DNA from: a virus
Direction: 5' to 3' (one strand)
Length of the DNA stretch: 62,930 bases
IMG/VR virus record: IMGVR_UViG_3300009164_000073
Coordinates: 1 to 62,930 of that record
Within the stretch, counting starts at the first letter, position 1; each line of letters begins with the position of its first letter. A program made the translations under genes and the position numbers. Positions 8,113 through 26,481 of the stretch are shown here, one piece after another. The notes below the pieces were generated by a model, which saw nothing but the letters and a program-made list of their open reading frames with translations, had not been told where the DNA came from and did no database searches.

Positions 8113-9741
8113 ATGCCATTACAGATTCGCAGAGGCCTTGACGCGGAAAGACTAGCCCTAACGCCAGCTACAGGCCTAGCACAAGGCGAACTAGTCTATG
8201 TTACAGACTCAAAACGTCTTTACATAGGAACCGGTTCAGCAGGCGAGCATCAAGGCGTTGCTATTACTGGTTATACCAACGAGGACGCACAGGATGCGGC
8301 CGCTGGACTTTTTACCGCTACTACAACTAGCGGTACTACAAATACTAACATTTCATTTGCCTACAACGATTCAGCAAATAAAGTAGTAGCCACAGTTGAC
8401 CTTACCGCATTAGGCACTAACATCGGTCTTAACGGTCATACAATTACAGGTAACGGTAGCATTACTATCAGCGGACTTGTTACAGCAGACCTAAAAGGTT
8501 CTGTTGCAGGTGACGACTCAGTGCTGCTAGTAAACGGTGCCGATTCAACGGTTAACCTAAGCGAAACTATTGTTGCAGATGTTAAACCAAGAATTAACTT
8601 TTCGCCAAATCTAGGAGCAACATCAAGAAGATTCAATGCTCTATTTGTTAGCGGAACAGGTGGTGTTGACGTAGGCGGTGCACTTATCACTGGTACTGGC
8701 GGCATACTTAATCTACCAGCTGGTTCATTAATTAATGGCCGTCCTATCACTCCAATAGACGGTGCGTTTACGGTACTAGATATCAAAGGCTCTGTGTTCG
8801 GTGATGATTCTACACTGCTAGTCGATTCTGTGGCAGGCACCATCAAAGGTGCTGTGGACAGTACTACAGTCAAAGCTAGTTCGTATGTGCAATCTCCATT
8901 AATAAATGCAGGTAGTCTTACACAGAATGGCGTGTTCAATGTTTATAATACTACAGACTTTTTTGGAACATTCTTTACCATAACAACATCTGGTCCCGGA
9001 GCTTTCCTAGATTTCCACGCTTCGAGAGGAACCCTTGCTTCACCTGCTGCATCACAAAATAATGATTACATCAGTGGTATTCTTTTAAAAGGACATAACG
9101 GAACTGCCTATGTACGTGCTGCGGCAGTTGTTGCTCTAGCAGACGGTAATGTCGTTAACGGTGAAGTTCCTGGAAAAGTTGTTATTTCTACTAAGAACTA
9201 TGCAGGTACTTTAGACAATTCATTCACGTTTAACAGTCGCGGAGTATTCGAAGCTCCGGTAATTAAACATACACCATTCGCAGATGCTACTGCACGTGAT
9301 GTGGGTATGAATGCTGGTGCTGGTATGATAGTATATAATACAGCACTTGGCCAATTCCAAGGTTACACATCAGGTTGGTACAGTGTATTAACTTCTGACA
9401 AGATTGGTTATACTACAGGTGTTGGTGGCGCAGTTACACAGATTAATACCAAAGCAACATCAGTTACACTAAACAAGATTTCTGGACAGATTACCTCTCA
9501 TACAGAATCCCTAGCAGGTAATGCCACTGTTATTTTTGATGTTCTAAATAGCACTGTATCACAAACAGATACTATCATTATTAATATGAAATCTTCAGGA
9601 TCAAATATTGGACAGTATCAATGCTGGATCGCTTCTATTGGTAATAACACATTTACGGTTGCTCTAAGAAATATGAGTGGAAGTCCGCTCGCAGAAGCAG
9701 TGACAATGAACTTTGCTGTAATTAAAGCTGTTGCAGCTTAA
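8113..9741 (+). CDS. Tail-fibre/virion structural protein (542 aa)
   Basis: Start at the ATG after AGGAG (8100-8104). Gly/Thr/Ser/Asn/Val-rich beta-structured protein. The N-terminal block (MPLQIRRGLDAERL...GELVYVTDSKRLYIG) is common at the start of marine T4-type phage fibre proteins. Then come repeated segments such as VAGDDSVLLVNGADSTVN and VFGDDSTLLVDSVAGTIKG, also seen in the 48827 protein. Likely a fibre or baseplate appendage. Late promoter upstream. Its TAA shares the palindrome TTAA with the stop of the convergent gene at 9738. Confidence 0.75.
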   Translation: MPLQIRRGLDAERLALTPATGLAQGELVYVTDSKRLYIGTGSAGEHQGVAITGYTNEDAQDAAAGLFTATTTSGTTNTNISFAYNDSANKVVATVDLTALGTNIGLNGHTITGNGSITISGLVTADLKGSVAGDDSVLLVNGADSTVNLSETIVADVKPRINFSPNLGATSRRFNALFVSGTGGVDVGGALITGTGGILNLPAGSLINGRPITPIDGAFTVLDIKGSVFGDDSTLLVDSVAGTIKGAVDSTTVKASSYVQSPLINAGSLTQNGVFNVYNTTDFFGTFFTITTSGPGAFLDFHASRGTLASPAASQNNDYISGILLKGHNGTAYVRAAAVVALADGNVVNGEVPGKVVISTKNYAGTLDNSFTFNSRGVFEAPVIKHTPFADATARDVGMNAGAGMIVYNTALGQFQGYTSGWYSVLTSDKIGYTTGVGGAVTQINTKATSVTLNKISGQITSHTESLAGNATVIFDVLNSTVSQTDTIIINMKSSGSNIGQYQCWIASIGNNTFTVALRNMSGSPLAEAVTMNFAVIKAVAA

Positions 9742-10289
9742 TTCCAACGAGGATAGCGATTTAAATTCTCAAGAAACCTGTCTGGATATATACGCCAGAC
9801 AGTTTGATCCGTACTGCGATAATTCATTTCGCACACACGTTCTACAATACCTAACTTAGCAAGTGTAGGAAAGTAATGTCTGTGTACAAGTCTTTGACTT
9901 GCTGCTGTGCTTTCATTACTAGTAGCATACAACTCTCCCTTGGCCCAATTGATACAGGCAGGCAGTAGGAACTGGTCTGTTAAATTCTGATGTTCGGCGA
10001 TTAGTTTTTTAGGTGTAATCAATCCACCATTCTGACGGGCTGTACCAAATGTACAAGTACGTGCTAACACACGATAAGCAGTTGGGCCCATAAGTGTAAA
10101 AGAATGAGCGGCAACACTACCGACAGCCTTGTCGTCTTGATACAATATCCACGCAGCCCATTCTGGTTCATTTCGAAAACAATCTATCATTGCCTGTTGA
10201 CTAGAGTTGTTAAAAAATCCTCGACTGGCTGCTTCTTTGTAAAACTCTGTTAGATTAAGATCTTCACTCCAGGGAATTATTTTATACAT
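9738..10289 (-). CDS. GNAT-like acetyltransferase (183 aa)
   Basis: Has the overall form of a GCN5-related N-acetyltransferase: a central AVGSVAAHSF strand and a later helix-strand pattern. The acetyl-CoA loop is not a clean Q/RxxGxG/A, so the call is moderate. Last gene of the minus-strand unit from promoter 11891; its ATG overlaps the end of the upstream PLP-enzyme gene by 13 bases. It would acylate an amine, possibly of the island's product (inference). Confidence 0.5.
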   Translation of the reverse strand: MYKIIPWSEDLNLTEFYKEAASRGFFNNSSQQAMIDCFRNEPEWAAWILYQDDKAVGSVAAHSFTLMGPTAYRVLARTCTFGTARQNGGLITPKKLIAEHQNLTDQFLLPACINWAKGELYATSNESTAASQRLVHRHYFPTLAKLGIVERVCEMNYRSTDQTVWRIYPDRFLENLNRYPRWN

Positions 10290-11176
10290 TCTAAATACCT
10301 AAGCAACGGACTTAGTCCTATAACTTTATTATTTTTTGTAGCCATATGAATAGTGTCACTAGGAGTAAGACCAAAATCATTACAAATTTTAAAGTGATTA
10401 TCACCGTGGTGATTCCAAAGATAATCCGGCTCACTGTTTTCTAAAATATAATTTGCTATCACAACTGGATAAGCAGTTACCTGTAAATGATCATTCATCA
10501 GAGTGATTGAATCCTCATTTAAAATTTTAGTCCAACGCAGTCCTATACGATTCCATCCGCTAGTACCATAACCCTTGCTCATACTTACTCCTAGACTTTC
10601 GATAGCAGGATGACTAAAATCTATATTAACGTTCCTAGCTGCCGTTAACCAGGCTGCATCGATATGCACGGGGATCTTCAGTTCAGCACAGGAGTCTAAT
10701 ATTTGATTCATATCGGCACGTTGTTTTCCAATACTACTAAATGGCGCTGAAATGATCAACGGCACTTTTGGGCGTAATGTACTAGGTAGTGATCCAACAA
10801 TAAATTTCCCTAATCGATGGTGATAGCTGTATTCTTTTTCTAATACCTGTACCTCTCCTTTTAAATGCAGGTTATCTATATACTGTGTACATCCTTGGAT
10901 AATATCAACACGATGTGCTAGGTCAAGGCCTGTTATTTTGTTTAGGGTCGATCCTACAATGTGTTGAGAAAATAGTCTTCTAAACTTTTCGTATATCGGC
11001 GAGGTTCCTTCAATTTGTGCTACTGAAAATGAATCGTCTATGCAATTCCAGTCGTAGTCTTTTTTATCTATTATATTTTGTATAAGAGACTGATGATGTT
11101 TATCAACAAACGGCCGGCATTTTGTTTTTTCTAAATACTGTTCATCATACGCACTAGGTGCAACTATATTAATCAT
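10277..11176 (-). CDS. PLP-dependent aminotransferase-like enzyme, copy 1 (299 aa)
   Basis: Fold-type I PLP enzyme signs: HIDAAW with D173 (would pair with the pyridine nitrogen) and SMSKGYG with K201 (Schiff-base Lys), plus a conserved IIQGCTQYID segment. It is about 100 residues shorter than usual aminotransferases, so it may be a minimal decarboxylase/aminotransferase relative. Start is the ATG at 11176, overlapping the previous stop; the frame is open further upstream. A close paralogue is at 13314 (shared QGCTQ, YHHRLG, GWNR-GLRWTK). Reaction unknown. Confidence 0.65.
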   Translation of the reverse strand: MINIVAPSAYDEQYLEKTKCRPFVDKHHQSLIQNIIDKKDYDWNCIDDSFSVAQIEGTSPIYEKFRRLFSQHIVGSTLNKITGLDLAHRVDIIQGCTQYIDNLHLKGEVQVLEKEYSYHHRLGKFIVGSLPSTLRPKVPLIISAPFSSIGKQRADMNQILDSCAELKIPVHIDAAWLTAARNVNIDFSHPAIESLGVSMSKGYGTSGWNRIGLRWTKILNEDSITLMNDHLQVTAYPVVIANYILENSEPDYLWNHHGDNHFKICNDFGLTPSDTIHMATKNNKVIGLSPLLRYLECIK

Positions 11177-11885
11177 AGTTGAAATCCTCAGAAAACTTGC
11201 CTTCAACTTTAATAGTCAAGCTGGATTTGTTATAAGAATTGATATTACCGTGCCAGTTATAATGATTAAAAGTAGCTGTATGTCCTTCTACAGGAACTTT
11301 ATGAGTTATGTTTCCAGACTCATTTATATCATACAAAAAAAACTCTCTATCAGTATCAAATCTAAACCAAATCAAATCTTGTAATTTATCTGGTTGACAT
11401 TGTTCTCCCTTTTCATAAGGTAAGAAGTTAAAGTCTCTATGGAACTTTAACGGGCAATAATGATCATTATAAAAAAAACTAACAGAGTCGATCTTCTTAA
11501 AAGGTAAGGTGTGTATCCAGTTGTGTATCACAGGAGTTACCCAAGGTTCGATATTTTTTTGCGGTGTGTAATCTATCAAATGCAAGATTTTATAAGGATT
11601 AAAAGATCCATATTTTAATTGTAGATATACAGCCAATTGCTCTTTATTGTCAAATTCTGTAAATTTAGAATCTTGATTTTTGTGCAATGTATAATACAAA
11701 AACGGATTTTCGATTATGTATCTCCATTGACAATCTATCGGAATACTTCCAGCATTCCAACTAGATACTGCTCGATCTTTATTTTTAGCAAACAAGAAGT
11801 AAAACTCATCTTTTAAACTTAAGAAGTGTTCTATGTCTAAATAGTTGTCTAGTGTGTAAAACGGTTTTTGTTTTAATAAAAGCAT
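11169..11885 (-). CDS. 2OG-Fe(II) oxygenase / Asp-Asn hydroxylase-like protein (238 aa)
   Basis: Shows FHRD (H149, D151), a strand pair with LIWFRFD, and a distal FNHYNWHG (H212), as in aspartyl/asparaginyl beta-hydroxylase-type oxygenases. It resembles the 19321 protein (HRD ... DWHSGG). First gene of the three-gene minus unit. Its ATG lies five bases behind a perfect TATAAATA box, so the mRNA should be leaderless. Substrate unknown. Confidence 0.6.
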   Translation of the reverse strand: MLLLKQKPFYTLDNYLDIEHFLSLKDEFYFLFAKNKDRAVSSWNAGSIPIDCQWRYIIENPFLYYTLHKNQDSKFTEFDNKEQLAVYLQLKYGSFNPYKILHLIDYTPQKNIEPWVTPVIHNWIHTLPFKKIDSVSFFYNDHYCPLKFHRDFNFLPYEKGEQCQPDKLQDLIWFRFDTDREFFLYDINESGNITHKVPVEGHTATFNHYNWHGNINSYNKSSLTIKVEGKFSEDFNYD

Positions 11886-11913: not shown

Positions 11914-12630
11914 ATGACAATTTCTAAATTTACCTACGATAAAAAATGGTTTGGTTTAGGAATTCCTAACGCTGACTTAACAGCTCCGTGGCAAACCCCA
12001 AATCTGGAAACTGATAAGTTTTATCCAGACCTAAGCGGCAGCATAGATTATAAATTAAATTCTCAAGGGTACCGAGATGTCGATTGGACCCCAGATCAGT
12101 TGAATAACAGTATATGGTGTGTAGGGCATAGTGATGTTGCAGGAATAGGCGTGGAGCACAAAGATAGTTGGCCTGCGTTATTAGAAAAGAGCACAGGAGT
12201 AAAAACAATTAATCTAGGAGTTGTTGGCGGCAGCTGGGACACTATCTCTAGAGTACTATCTTCTGCACTTACAACGCACAAACCAAAATTTGTTTTCATT
12301 CAGGCAACAACTAGAGATCGCAGAGAATACATTACTAACGAAAGACAACAGGTTGTATTACCAAGTATGGAAGACGATCGGCAAGTTGATTTAAATTTTT
12401 GGAAATTCATTGACGAAGAGAATAGCCAATATTCTTTAGAAAAAAATATAACTATTATTGATCTAGCCTGTAAAGTAGCTGGCGTTAACTATTTAATTTT
12501 TGATTTTGCTGATAGATGGAATATTATTAGAACATATCCTGCTGCTGACGGAAAACATATAGGTGTTGTACCTCACCGTATGATTTCAGAATACCTTACT
12601 GCTGAACTAAAGAAACACCAACTTGATTAA
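11914..12630 (+). CDS. SGNH/GDSL-family hydrolase (238 aa)
   Basis: SGNH pattern: block I is VGHSDVAGIG (nucleophile S73, with GHS in place of GDS), block II glycine in NLGVVGGSW, and a C-terminal DGKHIG with D212 and H215 completing the triad. These enzymes are esterases or acetyl-transferases/esterases acting on glycans or lipids. AGGAG precedes the ATG. The 3' end overlaps the convergent gene at 12596 by 35 bases. A second SGNH gene is at 23927. Confidence 0.65.
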   Translation: MTISKFTYDKKWFGLGIPNADLTAPWQTPNLETDKFYPDLSGSIDYKLNSQGYRDVDWTPDQLNNSIWCVGHSDVAGIGVEHKDSWPALLEKSTGVKTINLGVVGGSWDTISRVLSSALTTHKPKFVFIQATTRDRREYITNERQQVVLPSMEDDRQVDLNFWKFIDEENSQYSLEKNITIIDLACKVAGVNYLIFDFADRWNIIRTYPAADGKHIGVVPHRMISEYLTAELKKHQLD

Positions 12631-13273
12631 GAAATATTTTATCTAGAGTTAGTATTTCATCTAAGAAGATACTGTCGATAGTAAAACTTACAACACCTTC
12701 CTCAAATTTAAAATTAGTTATTTTCCCATCCTTGTTAGCATAATTTAACCAAGGACTAACAATTTGATCAAACGCATATCGATGCTTAACTGCTCCACTA
12801 ATAATAATATTTGTTGGGTTAGCTATTTCAGTTCTGTTCAATAGATTACGAACAACTAATTGATACCGGTCGGTATTTCCAAAATTAACAGCAGAATGTA
12901 GTACACCAGCATTCATTATCATCCAGGATGTGTGAGGTAAGGTTGGGTACAATTCCTTAGTGTTTAAATCTACAAGATAAGAGTTTTCGCCTAATATAGT
13001 AATATGCCATCGATCATCGATATCTGCGTGGACGGTGTAGCAGGCCCCTTCGGTTAACTTTATAAGTCTGGCCTCACCGTGATTGGGAAGTGTAGATAAA
13101 ATTTCTTCCCATACTGTGTTTTTGTATTCGGTTTTAATAATCCAAGGGTCGTAGAAAAAATCACCAGACGGAGTGTTTAATGACAGTTTAGTCTGCTCAA
13201 CGAAATTAGGAATAGACTGTTGAGCCCTTCCTAACTGCGTTTGACTAATTTGGTATTCAGTGTTGGTTAGCAT
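12596..13273 (-). CDS. 2OG-Fe(II) oxygenase / Asp-Asn hydroxylase-like protein (225 aa)
   Basis: Clear metal triad spacing: TVHADID (H82, D84), GVLHSAVN (H126) and R136 in DRYQLVVRNLL for 2-oxoglutarate. The pattern fits aspartyl/asparaginyl hydroxylase or related beta-helix oxygenases. Single-gene minus unit; ATG sits five bases from a CATAAATA late box (leaderless). Its last 35 bases overlap the SGNH gene in opposite orientation. Confidence 0.65.
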   Translation of the reverse strand: MLTNTEYQISQTQLGRAQQSIPNFVEQTKLSLNTPSGDFFYDPWIIKTEYKNTVWEEILSTLPNHGEARLIKLTEGACYTVHADIDDRWHITILGENSYLVDLNTKELYPTLPHTSWMIMNAGVLHSAVNFGNTDRYQLVVRNLLNRTEIANPTNIIISGAVKHRYAFDQIVSPWLNYANKDGKITNFKFEEGVVSFTIDSIFLDEILTLDKIFLNQVGVSLVQQ

Positions 13274-13278
13274 TGAAA

Positions 13279-13286
13279 TATTTATG
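13279..13286 (-). promoter_or_regulatory. Late promoter box CATAAATA (minus strand)
   Basis: Five bases upstream of the ATG at 13273. Forms a divergent pair with the box at 13301; the two start codons are only 40 bases apart. Confidence 0.75.
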
Positions 13287-13300
13287 TGCTATTATTATAG

Positions 13301-13308
13301 GGTAAATA
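13301..13308 (+). promoter_or_regulatory. Late promoter box GGTAAATA
   Basis: Five bases upstream of the ATG at 13314, in the divergent intergenic region. Heads the four-gene unit 13314-17402. Confidence 0.7.
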
Positions 13309-13313
13309 TTAAT

Positions 13314-14162
13314 ATGGAACGATATAAGGTAGCCCCAACATACGAAGAACACTGGTTAGAGACAGATAGACCTCAACCACTATCCGACACAAGAATAGAA
13401 ACTGTTATACAAGGTATTCTAGATGGTCGGTTAGGTATGGATATTACTGATAAAGTTTATACTGATTTTAAAAAAGAAACCAGCGATTGGATTTTTAATA
13501 CTCAACTAAACAGCCTAACCGGGTTTGATTCATTTAATCGATTAGATATTACCCAAGGCTGTACACAGTTTATTGACACTATCTATATGAAAGGTCCCGT
13601 CCAGGTGTTACAGGGTGATTATAAGTATCATCATAGATTAGGCAACTGGGGACGAACCGTTGGCAATCTATCTGCTAATATTCCACTAATCATAGCAATG
13701 CCCTTTCCTAGCACAGGATCGGTACACACTCAAATGGAGGATATATTGAATGAATGTTTGGACAAAAAGATTGAAGTACATATCGACGGCGCTTGGATCA
13801 GTTGCTGTCGTGATATTGATTTTGATTTTAGTAATGATGCTATTAGATCCGTTGGCATCAGTCTTAGCAAAGGTCTTGGTCTCGGCTGGAACCGCGTAGG
13901 ACTTAGGTGGACAAAAGACGACAAGCCAGATGCAATTACTTTAATGAATGATTTTAGAATGAACCTTAGAGCAGTATCAATGATTGGCTTACATTTTATA
14001 AGAAATTTCCCCAGTGATTACCTATGGACAACCTACGGTGATATCTACCATAAAGTCTGCAAAGATTTTAATCTGACTCCTACCAAGAGTATACATCTTG
14101 CACTTAGAAACGGTCAAGCCGTTGGCATTAGCCCATTAATAAGATATGCCTCAAACAATTAA
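13314..14162 (+). CDS. PLP-dependent aminotransferase-like enzyme, copy 2 (282 aa)
   Basis: Paralogue of the 10277 protein: HIDGAW (D158), SLSKGLG (K186), QGCTQFID and GWNRVGLRWTK are shared. The Asp and Lys are the expected PLP contacts of a fold-type I enzyme, but the protein is short for the family. Start set at the ATG five bases behind the GGTAAATA box; the upstream open frame runs through the promoter. It overlaps the radical SAM gene at 14146, so the two are probably co-translated. Confidence 0.65.
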   Translation: MERYKVAPTYEEHWLETDRPQPLSDTRIETVIQGILDGRLGMDITDKVYTDFKKETSDWIFNTQLNSLTGFDSFNRLDITQGCTQFIDTIYMKGPVQVLQGDYKYHHRLGNWGRTVGNLSANIPLIIAMPFPSTGSVHTQMEDILNECLDKKIEVHIDGAWISCCRDIDFDFSNDAIRSVGISLSKGLGLGWNRVGLRWTKDDKPDAITLMNDFRMNLRAVSMIGLHFIRNFPSDYLWTTYGDIYHKVCKDFNLTPTKSIHLALRNGQAVGISPLIRYASNN

Positions 14163-15414
14163 TCCACCAACATTTTGTATGCACCCATTTACTGGGCTTG
14201 CTACTAGAGAAGACGGCGCAATACAGGTATGTTGTCGTAGCCATCCTATTGGTAATATAAAAGATAACACCCTGGAAGAGATCTGGAACGGAGACAATAT
14301 GAAACGTATCCGTAAGCAAGTGCTCACAGGGTATCGACCAAAGGAGTGTGAGCCCTGTTTTAGTTTAGAAGACCAAGGTGTTGAAAGTTTACGGCAACGA
14401 CACGTACTTGGAAAAATCCCAGAGGCACGGATTAATTTATATCCCAATGCCGTTAGTACAATGCGTAAAGATCATACAATGCCGTTTGAGATTCCTACTA
14501 TGGAACTTAAACTTAATAACTTATGTAATTTAAAATGTCGTATGTGTCATCCGGGGGATAGTACCGCTTGGAATGATTGGGCAGAAGTTAAAGAGTTTTA
14601 CAAAGGTGAAGGGCAGGTTATATTCGATATCGTTGAAGAACACAATTTAGAAAAGAAACCGTTACTAGATAAGTTTGAAGATAATCCCAATTGGTGGATT
14701 AGTTTAGAAAAGAACTTACCCTACTTCCGACGTGTGGAATTCGCAGGAGGCGAGCCTCTAATGGATCCGCAACACTTTCGAATATTAGATATGCTTGCTC
14801 CGTATGGTGATCAAATTGAAATCAAATATGCCACTAACTTAACCACGCTAGGTAAGAGCAATCGCACAGTTTGGCAATACTGGCCTAAATTTAAATCAGT
14901 AGCGGTAAATGTAAGTATTGACGGTATTGGCACTAGCTATGAATACATTCGCGGCAATGCCAGCTGGGCTGAACTTATAAACAACATTAAACAAATACAA
15001 ACTATTCCAAATATTAGTCGCATTGTGGGAGCAGTGGCTGTGCAGGTCAGTAACATTCTCATACTTGACAAAATGATAGAATATTTTTTAAACGATTTAG
15101 GTATTGTATTTTATACTAATATGGTACAATATCCCAACGTATTATCTGCACAAGTTATTCCTAACGAATTAAAATCAATAGCTATTATTCGTTTAAAAGA
15201 TGTTAGGGAATTAGTTCCGACTTTTAAATTAGTAAAAGAACATCCGATGTTAGAAGAGCTAACTTACAAACAAATCGACGGCATAATTAATTTCATCCTA
15301 GCAAAGGATAATACCCACTTGTGGAATGATTGCATAGAGTATAACCGTCGATTAGATGTCACAAGAGAACAGAGTTTCTTTGATGTAACTCCAGAGTTTA
15401 AACCCTATGTTTAA
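14146..15414 (+). CDS. Twitch-domain radical SAM protein (422 aa)
   Basis: Radical SAM motif CNLKCRMC (C127, C131, C134) binds the SAM-cleaving [4Fe-4S] cluster, followed by FAGGEPL. Unusually, a cysteine-rich segment (C11, C29, C30, C68, C71) precedes the core, matching proteins with an N-terminal twitch domain carrying a second cluster. It overlaps both neighbours (17 and 8 bases). The closest relative in the window is at 17359 on the other strand. Such enzymes often modify peptides or small molecules; the substrate is unknown. Confidence 0.85.
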   Translation: MPQTINPPTFCMHPFTGLATREDGAIQVCCRSHPIGNIKDNTLEEIWNGDNMKRIRKQVLTGYRPKECEPCFSLEDQGVESLRQRHVLGKIPEARINLYPNAVSTMRKDHTMPFEIPTMELKLNNLCNLKCRMCHPGDSTAWNDWAEVKEFYKGEGQVIFDIVEEHNLEKKPLLDKFEDNPNWWISLEKNLPYFRRVEFAGGEPLMDPQHFRILDMLAPYGDQIEIKYATNLTTLGKSNRTVWQYWPKFKSVAVNVSIDGIGTSYEYIRGNASWAELINNIKQIQTIPNISRIVGAVAVQVSNILILDKMIEYFLNDLGIVFYTNMVQYPNVLSAQVIPNELKSIAIIRLKDVRELVPTFKLVKEHPMLEELTYKQIDGIINFILAKDNTHLWNDCIEYNRRLDVTREQSFFDVTPEFKPYV

Positions 15415-16303
15415 AGTTACCAGTGCTTGGCCGCATCAGGATCAATTAAAGGTTGAATGGAATCTTGGCAAAAGGTGCAACTACGATTGTACATATTGTC
15501 CGGCAAGCATACACGATCACCATAGCCCTCATACTGACATAAATTTGTTGGAGGCAACTGTAGATAAACTGTGTGCGATTGGTAAGCCATTGCGCATTAG
15601 CCTAACAGGAGGCGAACCTTGTGTACACCCGGACATTGAAGACTTATTAGAATACTTTAGACGCAAAGATGTGTTCTGGGTAAATTTGACAACTAACGGT
15701 ACACGCCCCAGTAACTGGTACCTACAAAATGAGATGTTTTTCAACCACTTAGTGTTCAGTCTGCATTTCGAACACGATTGGGAACGGGTGCATAGAAATA
15801 TCATACAGTACCAGGCAGGGACTCAAACAGATTTCTTTGTCAATGTTATGGCACATCATAAACATATGGACAGTGTTCGCAAGGTAGTTAAAGAGTACAG
15901 CGATCGTGGAATAAAATATGCTGTTAGGCGTATTCGATGGACTGACGGCGACCACAATATATTTGATGATTTAAAATATGAAGGTAAAGATCTTGAATGG
16001 ATACTGAATCAAGATTCTACTGTAAAACCCAATTGTAGGATAGATGAGTCAGAAATAATGCACAGTAACGATGTTATTAAAAAACATTTAAATCAATTTA
16101 AAGATTGGTCTTGCAACGCCGGACTCGAAAGTCTTATGATAAATTGGGACGGTGATGTTCATCGTGCGACCTGTAGAGTCGGTGGCAGTCTAGGTAACAT
16201 TTATAAAGGTAGCTTTGTTGTTCCTAGCAACCCCATTGTATGTACTAGAGACTGGTGTACCTGTGCTGCAGATATTCCATTAACAAAAATTAAAAATGAT
16301 TAA
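15407..16303 (+). CDS. Radical SAM enzyme (298 aa)
   Basis: CNYDCTYC (C24, C28, C31) at the very N-terminus, then SLTGGEPCVHP (SAM amino-group GGE motif). The C-terminal half has further cysteines (SCNAGLES, ATCRVGG, CTRDWCTC) that could hold one or two auxiliary clusters. It overlaps both neighbouring radical SAM genes by eight bases. It resembles the 25480 protein (DWSCN-G-S). Substrate unknown. Confidence 0.85.
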   Translation: MFKVTSAWPHQDQLKVEWNLGKRCNYDCTYCPASIHDHHSPHTDINLLEATVDKLCAIGKPLRISLTGGEPCVHPDIEDLLEYFRRKDVFWVNLTTNGTRPSNWYLQNEMFFNHLVFSLHFEHDWERVHRNIIQYQAGTQTDFFVNVMAHHKHMDSVRKVVKEYSDRGIKYAVRRIRWTDGDHNIFDDLKYEGKDLEWILNQDSTVKPNCRIDESEIMHSNDVIKKHLNQFKDWSCNAGLESLMINWDGDVHRATCRVGGSLGNIYKGSFVVPSNPIVCTRDWCTCAADIPLTKIKND

Positions 16304-18789: not shown

Positions 18790-18816
18790 AATAGTAATTA
18801 TGTCTATATAACTGCC

Positions 18817-18824: not shown

Positions 18825-18829
18825 TTTCT

Positions 18830-19327
18830 ATGTTATACAAAGGTAATTTTTCAAATATTTTTGAGCCCGAGGCATTGCAATTTATTCTTGCAAATCAAGG
18901 GGACCTTCGCCCGCAGACTAATATCGATAGTTACCAATTGGATAATTTCGGGAAGTGGAAATCTGCTGGGTATGATATGAACAAAATACGTTGGGAAGTA
19001 TTTTCCGGAGATACACCTAAATTTAATTTTAAAATATCTCTGCCATTCAAAGGAACGATCAAATGGTGGTTTGCAAAACTACATCCAGGCGATATGTTTC
19101 CGTTACATTTAGATACGTTTCCGGATAATACAAATGTAAGACGATATTGGATAGCCTGTCAAGATTATATACCTGGACATATTTTTGCCTACGATGATAA
19201 AATTTTAACAGGATATAAAGCTGGTGATATTTTTATGTTCGATCACAGCACTGTGTTACACGGATCTGCTAATATAGGATTTACTCCTAAGATATCTTTA
19301 CAGGTTGCTGTTACAGATGATCAGTAA
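18830..19327 (+). CDS. Putative 2OG-Fe(II) oxygenase (165 aa)
   Basis: Compact beta-helix oxygenase pattern: FPLHLDTF (H93, D95), STVLHGSAN (H144) and a basic residue K154 at the 2-oxoglutarate position. Single-gene plus-strand unit with a late box five bases from the ATG. Its last seven bases overlap the convergent gene at 19321. Substrate unknown; neighbours suggest a role with the radical SAM enzymes. Confidence 0.6.
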   Translation: MLYKGNFSNIFEPEALQFILANQGDLRPQTNIDSYQLDNFGKWKSAGYDMNKIRWEVFSGDTPKFNFKISLPFKGTIKWWFAKLHPGDMFPLHLDTFPDNTNVRRYWIACQDYIPGHIFAYDDKILTGYKAGDIFMFDHSTVLHGSANIGFTPKISLQVAVTDDQ

Positions 19328-20103
19328 TGAGTAAGATGTGCGATGCCTATCTTGGCACGAAACGCCTGGGTGAATACCCCGTCAACTCTTAGACTAAATG
19401 TCTGTTTGTTTATCTTGCCGCCTGAATGCCAATCTTGATCATTGAAGAAAGTTGCGTGACTATTAACTAGTACCTTTGTATCCGTTTCAGCATCCCATAT
19501 ATAAAAGGGCTTGTCTAAGTTAGTACGCAAATGGATGAACTCGTGTCTATGATTAAAGTAGTCGTGCTCATCAGGTAGTATTAAATCACGATGCATTGCC
19601 ATTTGACAATCGTGTTCTGCTTTAAAGAATATAATACGACCTAGATATTCGAAGACCCCATCGGTGACTAGATTTTCTAACCACTCCTTAAGTTCTGGAA
19701 ATAATTGAGAATCCTTCGTCCATTCTTTTTCTTGAAATCGTGTTTCCCATCCACCCTCTTCAGTTTTTAAAAATATAAACTGATATGGGTCATACGCACC
19801 TAATGCCAACTTAAGAAACAGCATAAATTGATCACGATTCTTGTACTCTCCTAATTCTTTACCCAAAATTCTAATTTCGTGATCTTCAGGGAGACTGTAA
19901 TATTCCTCTAATGCCTTATACGGCGGCTTAAATGATAATTCGTAGACACCTTCAAATCCTCCAGGCTTCTCCATATTACCTTCTTTCTTATGTTCAGCCA
20001 GAACAAGACCTTTGCATATCTTATAATGCAGAGATTTAAATTCTTCAATATTAAGATAAGAATCTAAATTGAGAAATGGTTTGTTGTCAATACCGCGTAT
20101 CAT
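19321..20103 (-). CDS. 2OG-Fe(II) oxygenase / Asp-Asn hydroxylase-like protein (260 aa)
   Basis: Relative of the 11169 protein: MAMHRDLI (H171, D173), a DKPFYIWD strand, NDQDWHSGG (H226) and R239. Start set at 20103 because the late box GGTAAATA lies exactly five bases upstream; the frame is open five codons further, into the promoter. Convergent overlap with 18830 and divergent from 20133. Confidence 0.6.
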   Translation of the reverse strand: MIRGIDNKPFLNLDSYLNIEEFKSLHYKICKGLVLAEHKKEGNMEKPGGFEGVYELSFKPPYKALEEYYSLPEDHEIRILGKELGEYKNRDQFMLFLKLALGAYDPYQFIFLKTEEGGWETRFQEKEWTKDSQLFPELKEWLENLVTDGVFEYLGRIIFFKAEHDCQMAMHRDLILPDEHDYFNHRHEFIHLRTNLDKPFYIWDAETDTKVLVNSHATFFNDQDWHSGGKINKQTFSLRVDGVFTQAFRAKIGIAHLTHY

Positions 20104-20108
20104 ATTGA

Positions 20109-20116
20109 TATTTACC
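20109..20116 (-). promoter_or_regulatory. Late promoter box GGTAAATA (minus strand)
   Basis: Five bases upstream of the ATG at 20103. Back to back with the plus-strand box at 20118, so both genes share a 29-base intergenic promoter region. Confidence 0.72.
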
Positions 20117-20117
20117 A

Positions 20118-20125
20118 CATAAATA
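20118..20125 (+). promoter_or_regulatory. Late promoter box CATAAATA
   Basis: Seven bases upstream of the ATG at 20133; heads the unit 20133-22391. Confidence 0.75.
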
Positions 20126-20132: not shown

Positions 20133-20804
20133 ATGAATATAACCGATTGGAATCTTTATTACAACCTCGAAGACACTGAATACGTCAGAGCCAACTTAGT
20201 TTACACTCCCTATGTAAGTCCAGACAATACAACTTTCTGTATGAGCTTTAATCGAGACCGTGCTTACCACAAAAATGAAAATGAAAATATTCTATGGTCT
20301 GAAGAATTACTAACCGATAGATTTTTAAAAGAAATAAAATTTCACAAACAGGCCTCTGCCACAATTCCCACTTTACAGATCAAAGATATTGATCACAAAG
20401 AAAGAAAAATCTTTTTAGAATGGCACGGCAATGATTTTTATATGCAAGGACTAAAAGAAGGTGGGTATAATAAAGTATTACCTAATTGGCAAGAGCAATG
20501 GATTGCATTGATAGAGAAAATGCGAGCTGCGGATATATTTAAAATTAGCTTACATCCCAACAGTTGGGTGGCACATCAAGGAACACTGATTCCATTTAAC
20601 TGGTTCTTCTGCTATCGAGAGAACGATGAATCTGTTACCCTGAGATCCCTGTTGATACAAATTAGCTCTGGACGGCAAGAGAAACTAGGAACAATAGATC
20701 TAGATCAATTACAGAGTCCTAGACAACTACAGCAAATAGCATTTAATAGTTTTAGACATAACTATCCCACGGAGTTAATTGACGATGTTTTATCAAAATC
20801 TTAA
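20133..20804 (+). CDS. Uncharacterised protein, possible kinase-like fold (223 aa)
   Basis: The C-terminal half contains ISLHPNSWV followed by LIPFNWFF, faintly like the HxDxxxxN and D-F segments of aminoglycoside-phosphotransferase-type kinases, but the catalytic Asp residues are missing, so activity is doubtful. First gene of a plus unit that continues with a radical SAM enzyme and a sulfotransferase. Leaderless start behind a CATAAATA box. Real gene, function unknown. Confidence 0.55.
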   Translation: MNITDWNLYYNLEDTEYVRANLVYTPYVSPDNTTFCMSFNRDRAYHKNENENILWSEELLTDRFLKEIKFHKQASATIPTLQIKDIDHKERKIFLEWHGNDFYMQGLKEGGYNKVLPNWQEQWIALIEKMRAADIFKISLHPNSWVAHQGTLIPFNWFFCYRENDESVTLRSLLIQISSGRQEKLGTIDLDQLQSPRQLQQIAFNSFRHNYPTELIDDVLSKS

Positions 20805-21831
20805 AGAACTAGAAATAGAAACCTCATCAATATGTAATGCGGCTTGTCCGATGTGTCTTAGAGATTTAACTCCTAATGACAAAACTTGGTTTGAAGAAAC
20901 ATATCTCGATGCTGATTTTTATGAGAATAGAATTCCTAATCACGTTTGGGAGAAAATAACATCAGTACTGTTTTACGGAATACTAGGTGATCCGTGCGCT
21001 GCCCCGAATTTTTTAGAAGTTTGTGAAGTTGTAAAACGCAAAGCTCCACACGCAGCGATAAGAGTATCTACTAACGGTGGGCTTCGTTCCGAAGATTTTT
21101 GGAAAAAACTTGCGGCAATCTTTACTAAAGATGACACAGTTACTTTTGCTATAGACGGGTTACGAGATACTAACCACATCTATAGAGTTAACGTAAATTT
21201 TGACAAAGTAATGGCTAATGCAAAAACTTTTATCAACAGTGGTGGCAGGGCGTGGTGGCAATGGATTGGGTTTAAACACAATCAGCATCAGGTAGAGATT
21301 GCAAAATCGTTGGCAAAAGAAATGGGCTTTGATAGATTTTACGAAAAACCGTCTCATCGATTTGTGTTTGCTGATAACATCGGTGGGGTAAAATACGGTG
21401 GGGATAATGTGTTATTAGAATCTCCTACGGTGAACGCCCATCCTCTAGTATATACACCAAAATTTAATTTTGACGAATGGTATAAAGATACAAATTCTAG
21501 TAATATTAATTGCTATGCTCAAGATCGAGAAAGTATCTATATAGATGCAAATGGGAATTTATTTCCGTGTTGCTCGATGGCGTCTGGACAAATGTACAAT
21601 CGAGTCATTGATTTTAAAGACGGATGGAATGATATTTGGGATCGATTCGGAGGCGACAAAATTAATCTCAAACATACGCAATGGGACGACATTGTCAATG
21701 GCCCGTTCTTTACAGGAGTAATGGATCGATGGGGAGCAGATTACACCAACGGAAGATTAGCTGTTTGCGCCAGTGTATGTTCTGATAGTAAATTTAAATT
21801 CAATAATAAGGTTTACACAAAAAAAACTTAA
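20785..21831 (+). CDS. Radical SAM/SPASM-type enzyme (348 aa)
   Basis: CNAACPMC (C17, C21, C24) and a C-terminal SPASM-like Cys set (NCYAQ, FPCCSMAS, VCASVCSDS). The usual GGEP is replaced by LGDPCAAP, as in its relative at 24504 (NLGDPIIA). Start chosen as ATG 20785 after GGAG (20771-20774); a TTG at 20779 is possible. Enzymes of this type modify peptides or carry out other radical chemistry; the substrate is unknown. Stop and start of the next gene overlap by one base. Confidence 0.85.
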   Translation: MFYQNLKELEIETSSICNAACPMCLRDLTPNDKTWFEETYLDADFYENRIPNHVWEKITSVLFYGILGDPCAAPNFLEVCEVVKRKAPHAAIRVSTNGGLRSEDFWKKLAAIFTKDDTVTFAIDGLRDTNHIYRVNVNFDKVMANAKTFINSGGRAWWQWIGFKHNQHQVEIAKSLAKEMGFDRFYEKPSHRFVFADNIGGVKYGGDNVLLESPTVNAHPLVYTPKFNFDEWYKDTNSSNINCYAQDRESIYIDANGNLFPCCSMASGQMYNRVIDFKDGWNDIWDRFGGDKINLKHTQWDDIVNGPFFTGVMDRWGADYTNGRLAVCASVCSDSKFKFNNKVYTKKT

Positions 21832-22391
21832 TGGCTGCTGTAAAATTAATTGAACACGATTTAACGTTTGTCCACATACCTAAAAGTGCTGGGTCGAGTG
21901 TTGTTCGATGGTTGACTAGAATGCCATATCAAATGATTAAAGGTCATCCGTCGTTGACTATAATTAAAGAACAATGGCCAGTTACGCAAACTTTTGCTGT
22001 TGTAAGGAATCCTTGGGCACGAATGGTTAGCGCATATTTCTATCTAAAACAATACGGATTCTATTGGGAAGATAACAATATCGCTTCCGTTGAAGAATTT
22101 CCAACCTGGAATGATTTTGTTGATCGGCTAGACTATGATACTAAAAGTTGGAATACCTTAACTACCAATCAATGTGAGTGGATTACTGATGGAGTGACCT
22201 ATCTTTTTAAAGCAGAAACACTAGATCAAGAATTCAATGTAATACAAAAACTACTACGTCGCGAAGATCCGTTACCCTATATCAATACATCGGACCACGA
22301 AGACTATCGTACATACTATACCGATGCTCAGAAGGCAAAAATAGGTCGAGCCTTTGAAAAAGACATTGACCTATACAAGTACACGTTCTAG
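21831..22391 (+). CDS. PAPS-dependent sulfotransferase (186 aa)
   Basis: Sulfotransfer_2-type motifs: HIPKSAGSS (residues 15-23, 5'-phosphosulfate loop with catalytic K18) and VVRNPWARMVSAYFY (57-71, 3'-phosphate binding R59 and S67). It would move sulfate from PAPS to a hydroxyl or amine, usually on a glycan. The convergent minus unit carries an APS-kinase-like protein that could make PAPS, and the two units share the palindromic stop CTAG. Confidence 0.85.
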   Translation: MAAVKLIEHDLTFVHIPKSAGSSVVRWLTRMPYQMIKGHPSLTIIKEQWPVTQTFAVVRNPWARMVSAYFYLKQYGFYWEDNNIASVEEFPTWNDFVDRLDYDTKSWNTLTTNQCEWITDGVTYLFKAETLDQEFNVIQKLLRREDPLPYINTSDHEDYRTYYTDAQKAKIGRAFEKDIDLYKYTF

Positions 22392-22564
22392 GGAATTTTA
22401 TTCCAAACTGTTTCGTGTATGTAATATAAGATAGTGTTTACTATCATCTGCGCTATTGCAATTCCTGTAGCGACTACAAGCTGTCCAGTAACAACATAAG
22501 AAATTACAAAAGTCGAAGTAGATCCAACTAGTCTCCAAGTTAAGGTCTTTATCAGTGTTCTCAT
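22388..22564 (-). CDS. DUF2061 small membrane protein (58 aa)
   Basis: Short gene starting with an ATGA overlap to the upstream APS-kinase-like gene. The sequence TWRLVGSTSTFVISYVVTG and a second hydrophobic helix (VVATGIAIAQMIVNTILYYI) match the DUF2061 pattern: two membrane helices and a conserved TWR at the start. DUF2061 proteins are known as neighbours or fusion partners of sulfate-activation genes, which agrees with the context. Exact role unknown. Its TAG shares CTAG with the sulfotransferase stop. Confidence 0.75.
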   Translation of the reverse strand: MRTLIKTLTWRLVGSTSTFVISYVVTGQLVVATGIAIAQMIVNTILYYIHETVWNKIP

Positions 22565-23352
22565 TTTAATCCTAGATCCTTACGGATTTTTGTAGCACTA
22601 ATATCGGTAACTGATTCGTCAAAGGTTTCTTCGCCGCTAGTGTAACCCACTCCACGACCCCAACCAATATGTATAATGTTAGGAACTAGCATAATATCGT
22701 ATTGCCCTTGATATAGAGGATCTAGATCACGTTTAATAAAACGCACAACGTCAACGAAATTAAACGGATTACTGTCTTGCCAACCTTGTACATCGCGTAC
22801 TTGGATAATAACTTGTCCGGTCTTGGTCAGCAGCCTTTCAAACAATGCACGATGACCATCGTGCCAAGGTTGCCAACGTCCTAGCATCTGTACAGTTTCT
22901 TTACGATTATCCCAACGTGGACGTCTGCGATTGTCTACAATATGATCAGCAACGAAGTCTGACCATTTGTCGGCATTCTGTTCTGTGATGCGGAAGTCAT
23001 AGATCTCCGGTTCAATAAACATCTTGTTAGTATCTGCGTAACGCCCTTCACGGATAGTATCCATCCAGACAGTCCAATCTGCTTTAAAGTTGTGACGCAT
23101 TTCGACTAGTGGTGCAACAAAGTCACAGAGTGCATAATCAGTACCACAGGTTTCTGCTAGATCATACATACGCTTACTTTGTCGTATGCGACCTTGCTCA
23201 CTGAAATCCCAATCGTCAAACTGCTTACGTACTTCGTCAGCGTTGAACCACGTAACTGTTTTCCCAGCATCTTCTAGTAGGCGTAGGAGTTTTTCTGCTA
23301 AGGTAGTTTTACCTGATCCAGGCAATCCCATAATTAAAATTCGTTGTGTCAT
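22561..23352 (-). CDS. APS-kinase-like/nucleotidyltransferase fusion (263 aa)
   Basis: The N-terminal half is a P-loop kinase of adenylylsulfate kinase type: Walker A GLPGSGKTT (9-17), then WFNADEVR as in CysC (NGDxLR), making PAPS from APS and ATP. The C-terminal half (about 152-263) has GRWQPWHDGH (158-167) and ISATKIR near the end, the HxGH and ISSTxxR motifs of adenylyltransferases (NMNAT, ATP-sulfurylase superfamily). The fusion could couple APS formation and phosphorylation, or act on another nucleotide. Overlaps neighbours by four bases on each side. Confidence 0.75.
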   Translation of the reverse strand: MTQRILIMGLPGSGKTTLAEKLLRLLEDAGKTVTWFNADEVRKQFDDWDFSEQGRIRQSKRMYDLAETCGTDYALCDFVAPLVEMRHNFKADWTVWMDTIREGRYADTNKMFIEPEIYDFRITEQNADKWSDFVADHIVDNRRRPRWDNRKETVQMLGRWQPWHDGHRALFERLLTKTGQVIIQVRDVQGWQDSNPFNFVDVVRFIKRDLDPLYQGQYDIMLVPNIIHIGWGRGVGYTSGEETFDESVTDISATKIRKDLGLK

Positions 23353-23942
23353 TTTTTCTTTCCTATAATCATATATCTATTGTAGAGAGGCAGCGACAGT
23401 TCGCCTTTCCAAAGTACATTTAAATTACTCTGATCTACAAATTCTCCCAAGCCTTGAACTATTCTTATATGCTCTGGTATATCGTAGTTATTACTCTGTA
23501 ATACAATTAGACTGTCTTTAGATATTCCGTTCAGCCACTGATCGTATTGCTCTTGTGTAATATGTTCACAGCTTGTGTTAATTATCACATCTGCCATAGT
23601 TGGGATCGTACACATATCGTGTGTAACCGCATTGAATTTTCCGGAAATTTCTTCTAGCTTGTTAATAGTGTTTGCTATCGTTTCACAGGAAGGATCGAGG
23701 TCCACACTGCGAATATGGCTTACGTATATGTCTGATTGGAATAGTAAACTGGCTAGCACCCCATTCCAACCGCCGTGTATATCTATGCTGACAACTTTAT
23801 TAACGTGTTTTCTTAAATTTGTTATCAACCAAATTTTAGACTTGATCTGCCCTTTCCAGAAACTTTCAAGTGTACGTTTAGGATCATCGCTGTCACGAAT
23901 AGCATCCATCCAAAATAAAACGTGATTTATATCAACCTGCAT
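23349..23942 (-). CDS. SAM-dependent methyltransferase-like protein (197 aa)
   Basis: Rossmann-type class I methyltransferase features: motif I VVSIDIHGGWNGVLAS (50-65), motif II acidic residue D81 in SVDLDPS, and a motif IV-like ADVIINTSCEHI. The glycine loop is atypical (HGGWNG), yet the layout fits. Overlaps the genes on both sides by 4 and 16 bases in the six-gene minus operon. Substrate unknown. Confidence 0.65.
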   Translation of the reverse strand: MQVDINHVLFWMDAIRDSDDPKRTLESFWKGQIKSKIWLITNLRKHVNKVVSIDIHGGWNGVLASLLFQSDIYVSHIRSVDLDPSCETIANTINKLEEISGKFNAVTHDMCTIPTMADVIINTSCEHITQEQYDQWLNGISKDSLIVLQSNNYDIPEHIRIVQGLGEFVDQSNLNVLWKGELSLPLYNRYMIIGKKK

Positions 23943-24520
23943 AATTCCTCCGCATACACTTTATGACATTCTAGTCCTGGATGATTATCATCAAGAGCCA
24001 ATGGATATTTACTCGCATAATCTCTAATATACACAGGTAAGTGTGGTACTGTTATTCCAGCCATTGTTAACAGATGAGTATGTTTAATTCCTGGAACGAG
24101 ATTATGTATTCCTTTTCTAATTAAATTCGAATGGCTAATGTACAGTTTAGTCTGCATCGTTGCATCATACTCTGAATGATATTTCTTATAATAGTCTTCG
24201 TTATCCATCCAGGGTCCAATATCTTTAATCGTATTCTGATCTGTTAGCACACAGTTTCTATCAGGGCTCGCCCATAGGACAAATACAATATCCGATTCAC
24301 GAAAGCTGAAATTGATCAAAGTATGCCAGATGCGTTTGTTGCTTGATCCTGGCTCGGAAAGATTAACACACTCTCTTCCCAGCTTTTCGGCAAGTAGCTG
24401 AGGCCAGGCAAAGTAACTGGGTTCTAATCCAGGTTCGGTTGGTGGCACGTGACAGTCCGGTAACCCGTGACCGTAAGTTAGTGAACACCCAAATGCTATC
24501 AGTCTAGAGGAATTGCTCAT
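23927..24520 (-). CDS. SGNH/GDSL-family hydrolase (197 aa)
   Basis: Block I FGCSLTYGHGL (nucleophile S13), block II NLSEPGSSNKRI, and C-terminal DDNHPGLECH with the Asp/His of the triad. Likely an esterase acting on a glycan, lipid or ester group of the island product. Overlaps the genes on both sides by 16-17 bases. Second SGNH gene of the island (other at 11914), with only motif-level similarity. Confidence 0.7.
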   Translation of the reverse strand: MSNSSRLIAFGCSLTYGHGLPDCHVPPTEPGLEPSYFAWPQLLAEKLGRECVNLSEPGSSNKRIWHTLINFSFRESDIVFVLWASPDRNCVLTDQNTIKDIGPWMDNEDYYKKYHSEYDATMQTKLYISHSNLIRKGIHNLVPGIKHTHLLTMAGITVPHLPVYIRDYASKYPLALDDNHPGLECHKVYAEELCRLI

Positions 24521-25487
24521 TTAATCTGTCAAATGATCCGCAGTTCTTTGAACACTCGATCAGTCCTGTGGTATTCCAACAACCGGATATTTTATTAAAA
24601 AATCCCGATGTAAAAATTTCTTTCAGTGTCTGTTCTTTGAGGCTGGGGAATTCACCTACCTTAGACATATATTCAATCCTGCTGTCCTGCTTAGGAACAG
24701 TCCATTCCATATCTAGCCAGCAGCAGGGAGATACGATGCCAGACGCACTAACATAAATTTGTTCTGCTCGCTGTGCTTTACAAGTTATGATAGGTGTAAC
24801 TTCTTCAATGGCTGATTTTATACGAGGTACCATTTCGATACTTTTTGAAGTTGGCTTTAATGTATAAAGCTGTTTACCATTATCATCTAGCACAGGAAAT
24901 TCAGGATCTCGAAATCTACTTGTATGCTTACTAGAAAAATCTGCAAAACCTAATTGGTCACTTAACGCTCTACATTCTTTAACCTGATGTTCATTGTGTT
25001 CGAATATTAACATATCCCAACGAGCCCATCCACCGGCATTGATAAATGCTGCGGCATTTTCGATAATCTTATGCCAATCTGTACCAATGCGATATAAGTG
25101 ATGAGTGTCTTCTAATCCATCAATGCCGAATATAACTTTAACTTCTAATTCTGCTAGTCGCTCCCACCAAGCTAAATCTCTTGCGCTGCCGTTGGTGTGC
25201 ATATGAAGTATGATATCAGGGCTAATTGATCTTAAATATTCAAATATTTTTAAAGTATCTTTGGCAATGATCGGGTCGCCTAGATTACCACACATATTCA
25301 CGTGTTCTAGTCGTGAACAAAAATCAGCATCGAACCAACTCTTAAATTGTGCCAGTGTTATTTCGTCTAAGGTAATAAACGGGTTCATTGGTCCGCCGTT
25401 GAATCGACGAGGACACATTGGACACCGTGCTTGGCACTTAGAAGTAACTTCTAGATGTATTGATTTTATATCTTCATAATTATACAT
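24504..25487 (-). CDS. Radical SAM/SPASM-type enzyme (327 aa)
   Basis: CQARCPMC (C18, C22, C25), NMCGNLGDPIIA in place of the GGEP region, and C-terminal Cys residues (TCKAQ, SPCCWLD, ECSKNCGS) fitting a SPASM auxiliary-cluster domain. Relative of the 20785 protein (both have a FGIDGLEDT/FAIDGLRDT segment and HNEHQV/HNQHQV). Overlaps the upstream radical SAM gene by eight bases. Substrate unknown. Confidence 0.85.
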   Translation of the reverse strand: MYNYEDIKSIHLEVTSKCQARCPMCPRRFNGGPMNPFITLDEITLAQFKSWFDADFCSRLEHVNMCGNLGDPIIAKDTLKIFEYLRSISPDIILHMHTNGSARDLAWWERLAELEVKVIFGIDGLEDTHHLYRIGTDWHKIIENAAAFINAGGWARWDMLIFEHNEHQVKECRALSDQLGFADFSSKHTSRFRDPEFPVLDDNGKQLYTLKPTSKSIEMVPRIKSAIEEVTPIITCKAQRAEQIYVSASGIVSPCCWLDMEWTVPKQDSRIEYMSKVGEFPSLKEQTLKEIFTSGFFNKISGCWNTTGLIECSKNCGSFDRLNEQFL

Positions 25488-26463
25488 TTTTTATCTTTGG
25501 TATTTTTGAGTCTGCCGAGCTCACACAGCTAGGAGTGATACAGAGCTGCGGGGCCTTGAATAACTCAAAGTTTTCCAAAGTTCCTAATGGTTGGTCGTGA
25601 CAGCTATATGACCGTTTAACTTCGTTACCTCTTATTATAACACTTTGAAAGCCACTATTGCAACTCCAATCTTTAAACTTATTAAATCCAAAAGCATTAA
25701 ATCTTTCTGCCTGGTCAAACAGATGTTCTTGGTTATCTATATCATATAACGCAATCTGATAAACTTCCTCACCGTTAGAACGTTGTGGAAACCCAGTCTG
25801 CATCTTGTTGATCATATCTTCAGTATACCCATCGACTACCGTGCTGGCGGTAGGATCACTCTGTGGTTTGAGTGTTACATTAATTCCACGCTGATGGAAC
25901 CTTTCCATACGAGCATACAGCTCGTCAAACTTCTCAGGCACCATTACTTGATTGATTGTAACGTGTACTAGCTCGTACTGTAACTGTAAACACTTGTCGC
26001 CAAACTCTTGCTCCCTAGCAAACTCATCGTGAAAGCTGGCTGTGATACTTCTTCGCTGTAACAGAGCTGTGGCATCACACCACGATTTCCACCATTTTGA
26101 GCCCGGGGATAAATTGGTAGTCATATGAATACTTTGATACCTAGATTCTTTTTCATCTAGGTGCCTAATTAATTCAATTAAATCTTTGTAGGCTGTAGGT
26201 TCGCCACCACTGAAGCTCCAATGGAATTCTGTAAATCCGTTTTCACGAGCCTGTCTTTTGATTTGATCTACTGTTCTTTTGTAGACCACTAACGACTGGT
26301 GGTCAACTTTGTCACTGCGAGCATAGGGCCAACAGTAGGAGCAGTTGTAGTTACAGAAGCGACCTAATATCCAACTTATAGAAAAACGAGGATTGTCTAG
26401 CATAGTACGTTGACCAAAACGCACAATATGTTCAAATGGTATTGTTTGAAAATTGGTTATCAT
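25480..26463 (-). CDS. Radical SAM enzyme (327 aa)
   Basis: CNYNCSYC (C37, C41, C44), SFSGGEPTAY, and C-terminal Cys residues (WSCNSGFQS, YSCHDQ, CITPSCVSS). Belongs with the 15407 and 16296 proteins. First gene of the six-gene minus operon that ends with DUF2061. A late box GTTAAATA lies ten bases upstream. Substrate unknown. Confidence 0.85.
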   Translation of the reverse strand: MITNFQTIPFEHIVRFGQRTMLDNPRFSISWILGRFCNYNCSYCWPYARSDKVDHQSLVVYKRTVDQIKRQARENGFTEFHWSFSGGEPTAYKDLIELIRHLDEKESRYQSIHMTTNLSPGSKWWKSWCDATALLQRRSITASFHDEFAREQEFGDKCLQLQYELVHVTINQVMVPEKFDELYARMERFHQRGINVTLKPQSDPTASTVVDGYTEDMINKMQTGFPQRSNGEEVYQIALYDIDNQEHLFDQAERFNAFGFNKFKDWSCNSGFQSVIIRGNEVKRSYSCHDQPLGTLENFELFKAPQLCITPSCVSSADSKIPKIKNV

Positions 26464-26473
26464 AAAGTGCTAA

Positions 26474-26481
26474 TATTTAAC
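26474..26481 (-). promoter_or_regulatory. Late promoter box GTTAAATA (minus strand)
   Basis: Ten bases upstream of the ATG at 26463; would transcribe the six overlapping genes down to 22388. The same octamer precedes phoH (59878). Confidence 0.65.

Follow-up and report, generated by a model that had tools for sequence, protein, structure and literature searches.

T4-like phages rich in radical SAM (rSAM) genes have been described before. The Campylobacter phages CP220 and CPt10 (Firehammervirus) encode about 11–12 rSAMs, and a cluster of 10–12 genes, five of which encode rSAMs, differs from one near-identical phage to another (PMC2853527). The marine T4-like environmental virus TARA_ERS488813_N000010 has 12 rSAM genes and an A-type carrier, and viral Fe-S genes have been suggested to serve viral Fe-S enzymes (PMC5332604). 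Cassettes of rSAM genes are noted in the pelagimyophage host recognition cluster (PMC7029224), and Lake Baikal phages have rSAM linked to PQQ (PMC7678222).

The window analysed here is the whole 62,930-nt stretch of the IMG/VR virus contig IMGVR_UViG_3300009164_000073. It is from a T4-like phage and encodes a clamp loader, tail-fibre genes and 14 tRNAs. From the IMG sample numbers we take the window and its relatives to be freshwater. Its island lies beside tail-fibre genes. In uncultured T4-like phages, this block of 7 to 15 rSAMs and other modifying enzymes is conserved, yet exchangeable. Our preferred, if tentative, explanation is that the island tailors a glycan, either host surface polysaccharide or virion glycan, using host-made sugars.

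Gene content of the island

The island (9738–26463) comprises 20 listed genes plus a DUF2061 gene, with eight strand switches (Table 1); ORFs are mechanical calls, and genes are named by start position. It encodes seven rSAM, two PLP-fold and four oxygenase-like proteins, a kinase-fold protein, a sulfotransferase, a kinase-nucleotidyltransferase and DUF2061. Tail-fibre-like genes flank it on both sides. The original prediction had the genes overlapping end to end; this is so for 16 of 19 neighbouring pairs, and the remaining pairs do not overlap. The listed genes are 98.7% coding, and the figure rises to about 99% when DUF2061, whose ORF fills the largest gap, is added. As predicted, the island has no precursor peptide gene, since this gap is the only substantial one, and we do not class it as a RiPP cluster.

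Table 1. Genes of the island, its border fibre gene and the Fe-S genes of the window
Feature	Position	Strand	Evidence
Tail-fibre-like gene, island border	8065..9741	+	phrog_18251 match at C-terminus
GNAT-like	9738..10289	-	weak FeeM match, E 0.09; relatives in 18 loci
PLP fold-type-I-like enzyme, paralogue a (PLPa)	10277..11206	-	41% identical to 13260; motif residues invariant
Oxygenase-like protein a	11169..11885	-	HRD...H sequence motif; missing from nearest relative
SGNH-like protein a	11914..12630	+	DUF6473-like, weak, E 3e-4; missing from nearest relative
Asp/Asn beta-hydroxylase-like 2OG-Fe(II) oxygenase b	12596..13273	-	PF05118 in relatives; 7v4f E 2.7e-19
PLP fold-type-I enzyme (predicted), paralogue b (PLPb)	13260..14162	+	Lys204, Asp176 invariant; probable true start near 13314
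N_Twi_rSAM (NF033640) 1, CNLKCRMC	14146..15414	+	337 bits vs 170 cut-off
rSAM 2, CNYDCTYC	15407..16303	+	PF04055 52.9 bits
rSAM 3, CNYDCTYC	16296..17402	+	PF04055 45 bits
N_Twi_rSAM (NF033640) 4, CNLKCIMC	17359..18840	-	385 bits
Oxygenase-like protein c	18830..19327	+	HxD...H motif; homologues in 23 loci
Oxygenase-like protein d	19321..20118	-	motif similar to protein a; homologues in 19 loci
Protein-kinase-fold protein, possibly pseudokinase	20133..20804	+	AlphaFold pLDDT 89.9; Foldseek Bud32/PRPK E 8e-7
rSAM 5, CNAACPMC	20785..21831	+	PF04055 33 bits
Sulfotransferase	21831..22391	+	PF03567; phrog_3347 galactose-3-O-sulfotransferase
DUF2061 membrane protein	22388..22564	-	PF09834 E 8.6e-19
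APS-kinase-like P-loop kinase fused to NMN-adenylyltransferase-like nucleotidyltransferase	22561..23352	-	phrog_10255 E 4e-45
Methyltransferase-like core partner of rSAM 7	23349..23942	-	function by motif only
SGNH-like protein b	23927..24520	-	PF13472 E 0.015
rSAM 6, CQARCPMC, SPASM-like C-terminus	24504..25487	-	family search
rSAM 7, conserved core gene, CNYNCSYC	25480..26463	-	plus invariant Cys 268, 288, 308, 313
IscU-like Fe-S scaffold, outside island	38002..38385	+	PF01592 E 6e-53
A-type Fe-S carrier, outside island	38357..38683	+	PF01521 E 2.6e-16

All seven predicted rSAM proteins are present with an intact CxxxCxxC motif. Six pass the PF04055 cut-off, and 14146 is just under it (29.0 vs 29.5 bits). 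Proteins 14146 and 17359 are members of NF033640, in which a SPASM/twitch domain lies N-terminal to the rSAM domain; the other five reach at most 52.5 bits and are not members. The further invariant cysteines of rSAM 7 are as expected for an auxiliary cluster, and its mean column identity is 86% across 22 relatives. No island rSAM reaches the cut-off of a peptide-maturase family, and no island protein matches Pfam RRE/PqqD. The best island rSAM scores 48.8 bits with prokaryotic viperin (NF038283, cut-off 180 bits), and every score is far below the curated equivalog cut-offs of QueE, MoaA and PqqE.

These scores bear on two other explanations. Hypermodification of bases in phage DNA or RNA would be consistent with the weak match of rSAM 2, 3 and 7 to a QueE-like phage family, with the PP-loop genes of relatives and with the PLP and kinase domains known in thymidine hypermodification. 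It is very unlikely, considering the absence of curated QueE, MoaA or viperin matches and of a recognised base hydroxymethylase in the island, the location beside tail genes, and a pathway of about 10 rSAMs that would be unlike known ones. We also regard it as highly improbable that the island boosts host metabolism. Such a role has been proposed for Lake Baikal phage VP_139, through PQQ or the SAM cycle in methylotrophs (PMC7678222), and for CP220, through general metabolism (PMC2853527). The best PqqE score is 22.6 against a 381-bit cut-off, and SAM synthetase is absent in 39 records, unlike VP_139.

The two predicted PLP paralogues both keep Asp176 and Lys204, and 13260 is predicted to have PLP fold type I with a Schiff-base lysine and Asp (AlphaFold/Foldseek, E 4e-8). 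Duplication is visible in this pair and within the rSAMs, in agreement with the predicted origin of the pathway. Among the loci examined, however, a close PLPa relative occurs only in the nearest related phage, so PLPa counts as an addition and not as part of the core. The four predicted oxygenases differ in standing: the 12596 family has profile support (PF05118 in 17 of 20 relatives), and proteins a, c and d are assigned from HxD...H motifs. Three further 2OG-Fe(II) oxygenases (PF13759) lie amid the tRNA genes outside the island, at 1296–1919, 3776–4396 and 5091–5651. The predicted sulfotransferase, APS-kinase fusion and DUF2061 protein are all recovered. The sulfotransferase and the fusion are not a fixed pair, as two relatives have the kinase with no sulfotransferase seen. 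The two SGNH proteins and the GNAT protein have weak matches, and the methyltransferase 23349 is assigned by motif, with no Pfam match; haemagglutinin matches of its profile were judged spurious. The protein-kinase fold of 20133 had been overlooked in the original prediction. In the alignment, the window copy has Asn in place of the DFG-like Asp and no evident catalytic Asp, so it may be a pseudokinase.

Late promoters had also been predicted, and these were not confirmed in the form proposed. The T4 late promoter TATAAATA occurs once in 63 kb, fewer than the 6 expected by chance. A TAAATA core is found within 80 bp upstream of starts 18 times across the window against 5.5 expected (about threefold), and this core is perhaps a variant late promoter. 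Elsewhere in the window, by reading, 27967–28662 is a Bax-inhibitor-1-like membrane protein and 35128–35613 a QueD/6-pyruvoyl-tetrahydropterin-synthase-like protein. Next to the tail fibres, 34372–35040 has a possible glycosyltransferase-like N-terminal motif, with no Pfam or PDB sequence match.

Conservation and exchange among T4-like phages

The window has no DNA match in 50,697 phage records, and its protein matches there are distant. In IMG/VR, at least 599 sequences are related to rSAM 7, and the best 80 are 79–98% identical to it. The methyltransferase-like 23349 is present in all 44 loci that reach 9 kb or more on the island side, and it lies within two genes of rSAM 7 in 80 of 90 loci. 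By best-match labels to window genes, in which paralogues may be counted, the same 44 loci have rSAM 6 (93%), N_Twi 4 (89%) and rSAM 2 (84%), and less frequently N_Twi 1 (73%), PLPb (57%) and oxygenase b (50%). The 38 virus records that have 25480 or 13260 show a median PF04055 count of 10; they were chosen by island genes and so contain one or two rSAMs by construction. In 14 related T4-like records without 25480 the median is 2 (Mann-Whitney p 2e-7). The highest count in one record is 15. Many of the compared contigs are fragments. The genes occur together in dozens of phage contigs, which rules out scattered singletons, and of the 427 full-length proteins related to the seven rSAMs, one is without the cluster motif; on both points the original prediction withstood the comparison. 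Between them, the islands of seven relatives also contain epimerase, PP-loop and TauD genes, as well as rSAM genes of the B12-binding type and of the pterin-methyltransferase type (HMPTM zinc ribbon).

The same families reach further. A 161-kb contig binned in a Chloroflexi MAG encodes a tail-fibre relative and a clamp loader of the T4 type (35% identical). Homologues of 25480 (50%), 13260 (43%), 17359 (39%), 16296 (37%), 24504 (37%) and 23349 (32%) stand there in one run, followed by glycosyltransferase-like genes. This contig is a deeply diverged marine T4-like phage that keeps the same families.

Compared with the nearest relative, 3300032225_000930, the flanks at 1.5–8.4 kb and 26–28.5 kb are mostly 92–99% identical, apart from one place near 6.5 kb where identity falls to 75%. 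In the island, identity is 69–85% in most bins, and the relative lacks 11169, 11914 and 23927. Variation is not confined to the island: the giant tail-fibre region at 39–48 kb has diverged too (about 82%), which makes two variable zones. Gene 8065, the fibre gene at the border, shares the divergence of the island, with a dS of 0.62 versus 0.15 for the preceding gene. Against this relative, most island genes with unsaturated dS have dN/dS of 0.02–0.15, 25480 being left out and the value for 24504 coming from a separate comparison; these ratios indicate that the island genes are under purifying selection.

The varied tailoring enzymes, their close packing and the B12-type and pterin-methylase-type rSAM, PP-loop and TauD genes of relatives would suit a pathway for a small diffusible metabolite or cofactor, like secondary metabolism, acting in the infected cell or against competitors. 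We consider this quite unlikely, because no NRPS, PKS, precursor or exporter is seen in the island, which is 99% coding without a peptide gene, and because of the eight strand switches and the strong variation between phages.

The IscU-like and A-type carrier genes lie side by side. The carrier is present in 25 of 26 related records, whether or not they have the island, and IscU also occurs without rSAM 7 (Fisher p 0.087), so a link of the two genes to the island is plausible but not specific. It is possible, though doubtful, that the phages encode a dedicated multi-step radical pathway with 25480 and 23349 as core pair. Such a pathway would have an Fe-S supply of its own, would build a modification that cells are not known to make and would be swapped from phage to phage in the manner of a serotype.

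Glycans as a proposed substrate

The original prediction named the virion, a surface glycan or a small molecule as what the island modifies. This is compatible with the present findings, and the context of N_Twi_rSAM genes in bacteria and other phages favours a glycan. N_Twi_rSAM is rare in bacteria. In the phylum sample, 3 of 299 genomes have it, and in one of these it is on a phage-like contig. All three non-phage occurrences found sit amid surface-polysaccharide genes. In L308, N_Twi_rSAM is accompanied by WbsX, TylF, RmlC, RmlD and Wzm, and an in-frame ORF of this O-antigen-like cluster (8579–11143) joins an ABC transporter, a Wzt C-terminal domain, SPASM and radical SAM. In L309 it is found with GT2 and a sugar epimerase. 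In L315, an in-frame fusion of FkbM methyltransferase, SPASM and radical SAM (8739–10988) is next to glycosyltransferases. Forty control regions of the same bacterial genomes together have 2 glycan-probe genes in 579 kb. The 42 viral N_Twi loci were found with a single protein as query (38–44% identical), the pooled N_Twi alignment being too diverse. They have 13.5 glycan-probe genes per 100 kb versus 0.9 and 4.0 in two phage control sets, the probes (carbamoyltransferase, DegT aminotransferase, epimerase and GT-like) being partly taken from one glycan-rich N_Twi locus. The PF03567-type sulfotransferase, a diverged island between near-identical immediate flanks and the analogous island of the cultured pelagiphage Mosig (see below) also speak for a glycan.

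Other observations speak against it. By Pfam searches, the island has no glycosyltransferase or nucleotide-sugar enzyme genes, and the GT8-like gene and UDP-glucose dehydrogenase of the window are both outside it. Freshwater island loci are not enriched in such genes (1.4 per 100 kb), and the core pair 25480/23349 is absent from the glycan-rich N_Twi loci. The link runs through two of seven rSAM families, and three bacterial contexts are a small sample. As the N_Twi loci are rich in sugar genes but the freshwater islands are not, we keep glycan tailoring as a tentative reading.

SPASM/twitch domains are typical of peptide maturases too, and the enzymes could modify virion proteins after translation, for example the neighbouring tail fibres, by rSAM/SPASM side-chain chemistry, Asp/Asn hydroxylation and sulfation. 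The island borders tail-fibre-like genes, one of which (8065) diverges with it, 12596 is Asp/Asn beta-hydroxylase-like, rSAM 7 weakly matches a sulfatase-maturating rSAM in the PDB (4k36, E 9e-4), and a separate precursor would not be needed. We nevertheless find this rather unlikely. The peptide-maturase and RRE/PqqD results go against it, 7–15 different rSAMs are many for one protein, and the N_Twi relatives accompany sugar genes.

If a glycan is the substrate, as we infer together with the role of every island enzyme, SPASM/twitch rSAMs would abstract hydrogens and so oxidise, epimerise or deoxygenate carbons of sugars or linked amino acids. The 2OG oxygenases would hydroxylate, the PLP enzyme would set amino groups, and methyl-, acetyl- and sulfo-transfer would complete the decoration. 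The phage IscU and A-type carrier may help to supply Fe-S clusters. On host surface polysaccharide, such tailoring could block superinfection or serve assembly and release. Phages would then tailor sugars built by the host rather than build their own. The chemistry of rSAM enzymes is within reach of few other enzymes. If host surface or virion glycans are what they decorate here, the islands would be a large and untapped source of sugar-modifying enzymes and would give a concrete handle on how aquatic phages exclude superinfection. With the universal pair 25480/23349, two proteins are enough to test the question.

Comparison with described systems

The kind of system is already on record, in rSAM-rich exchangeable modules (CP220) and in multi-rSAM T4-like marine viruses. 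The density of radical chemistry was rightly called unusual for a phage, although rSAM-rich T4-like modules are published (PMC2853527, PMC5332604, PMC7029224). The term undescribed system is fair for the present conserved gene set, of which we found no published description in the literature searched, with few subscription papers covered; for the kind it is too strong. In the phage collection, nothing is closer than about 22–27% to rSAM 7, PLPb and the N_Twi genes.

With seven rSAMs in a diverged island between near-identical immediate flanks, the locus has the pattern of a CP220-type exchangeable module. Both are rSAM-rich modules of T4-like phages, and there is distant homology to rSAM 5 (24.5%, E 1e-11). 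The CP220 module differs in having a glycine amidinotransferase, which is not among the window proteins. One relative of the window has an amidinotransferase-like protein by reading, with no Pfam match. TARA_ERS488813_N000010 is similar in its many rSAMs and Fe-S assembly genes, as judged from the published gene count.

The cultured Pelagibacter phage Mosig EXVC030M likewise carries rSAM, oxygenase, aminotransferase, methyltransferase and GNAT genes in a hypervariable island next to its tail fibres. That island lies between tail-fibre genes and VrlC and includes aminotransferases, an epimerase and a carbamoyltransferase. VrlC and the neck protein gp14, the borders of the pelagimyophage host recognition cluster, were not identified in the 63-kb record. 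Unlike the window, Mosig has three rSAMs annotated as MoaA-like and clear sugar-nucleotide genes, and homology between the two islands is below 30% in most matches. The bacterial O-antigen-like cluster L308 has tandem N_Twi_rSAM genes, as in the phage islands, and differs from the window island in being cellular, with Wzm/Wzt, RmlC/D and WbsX.
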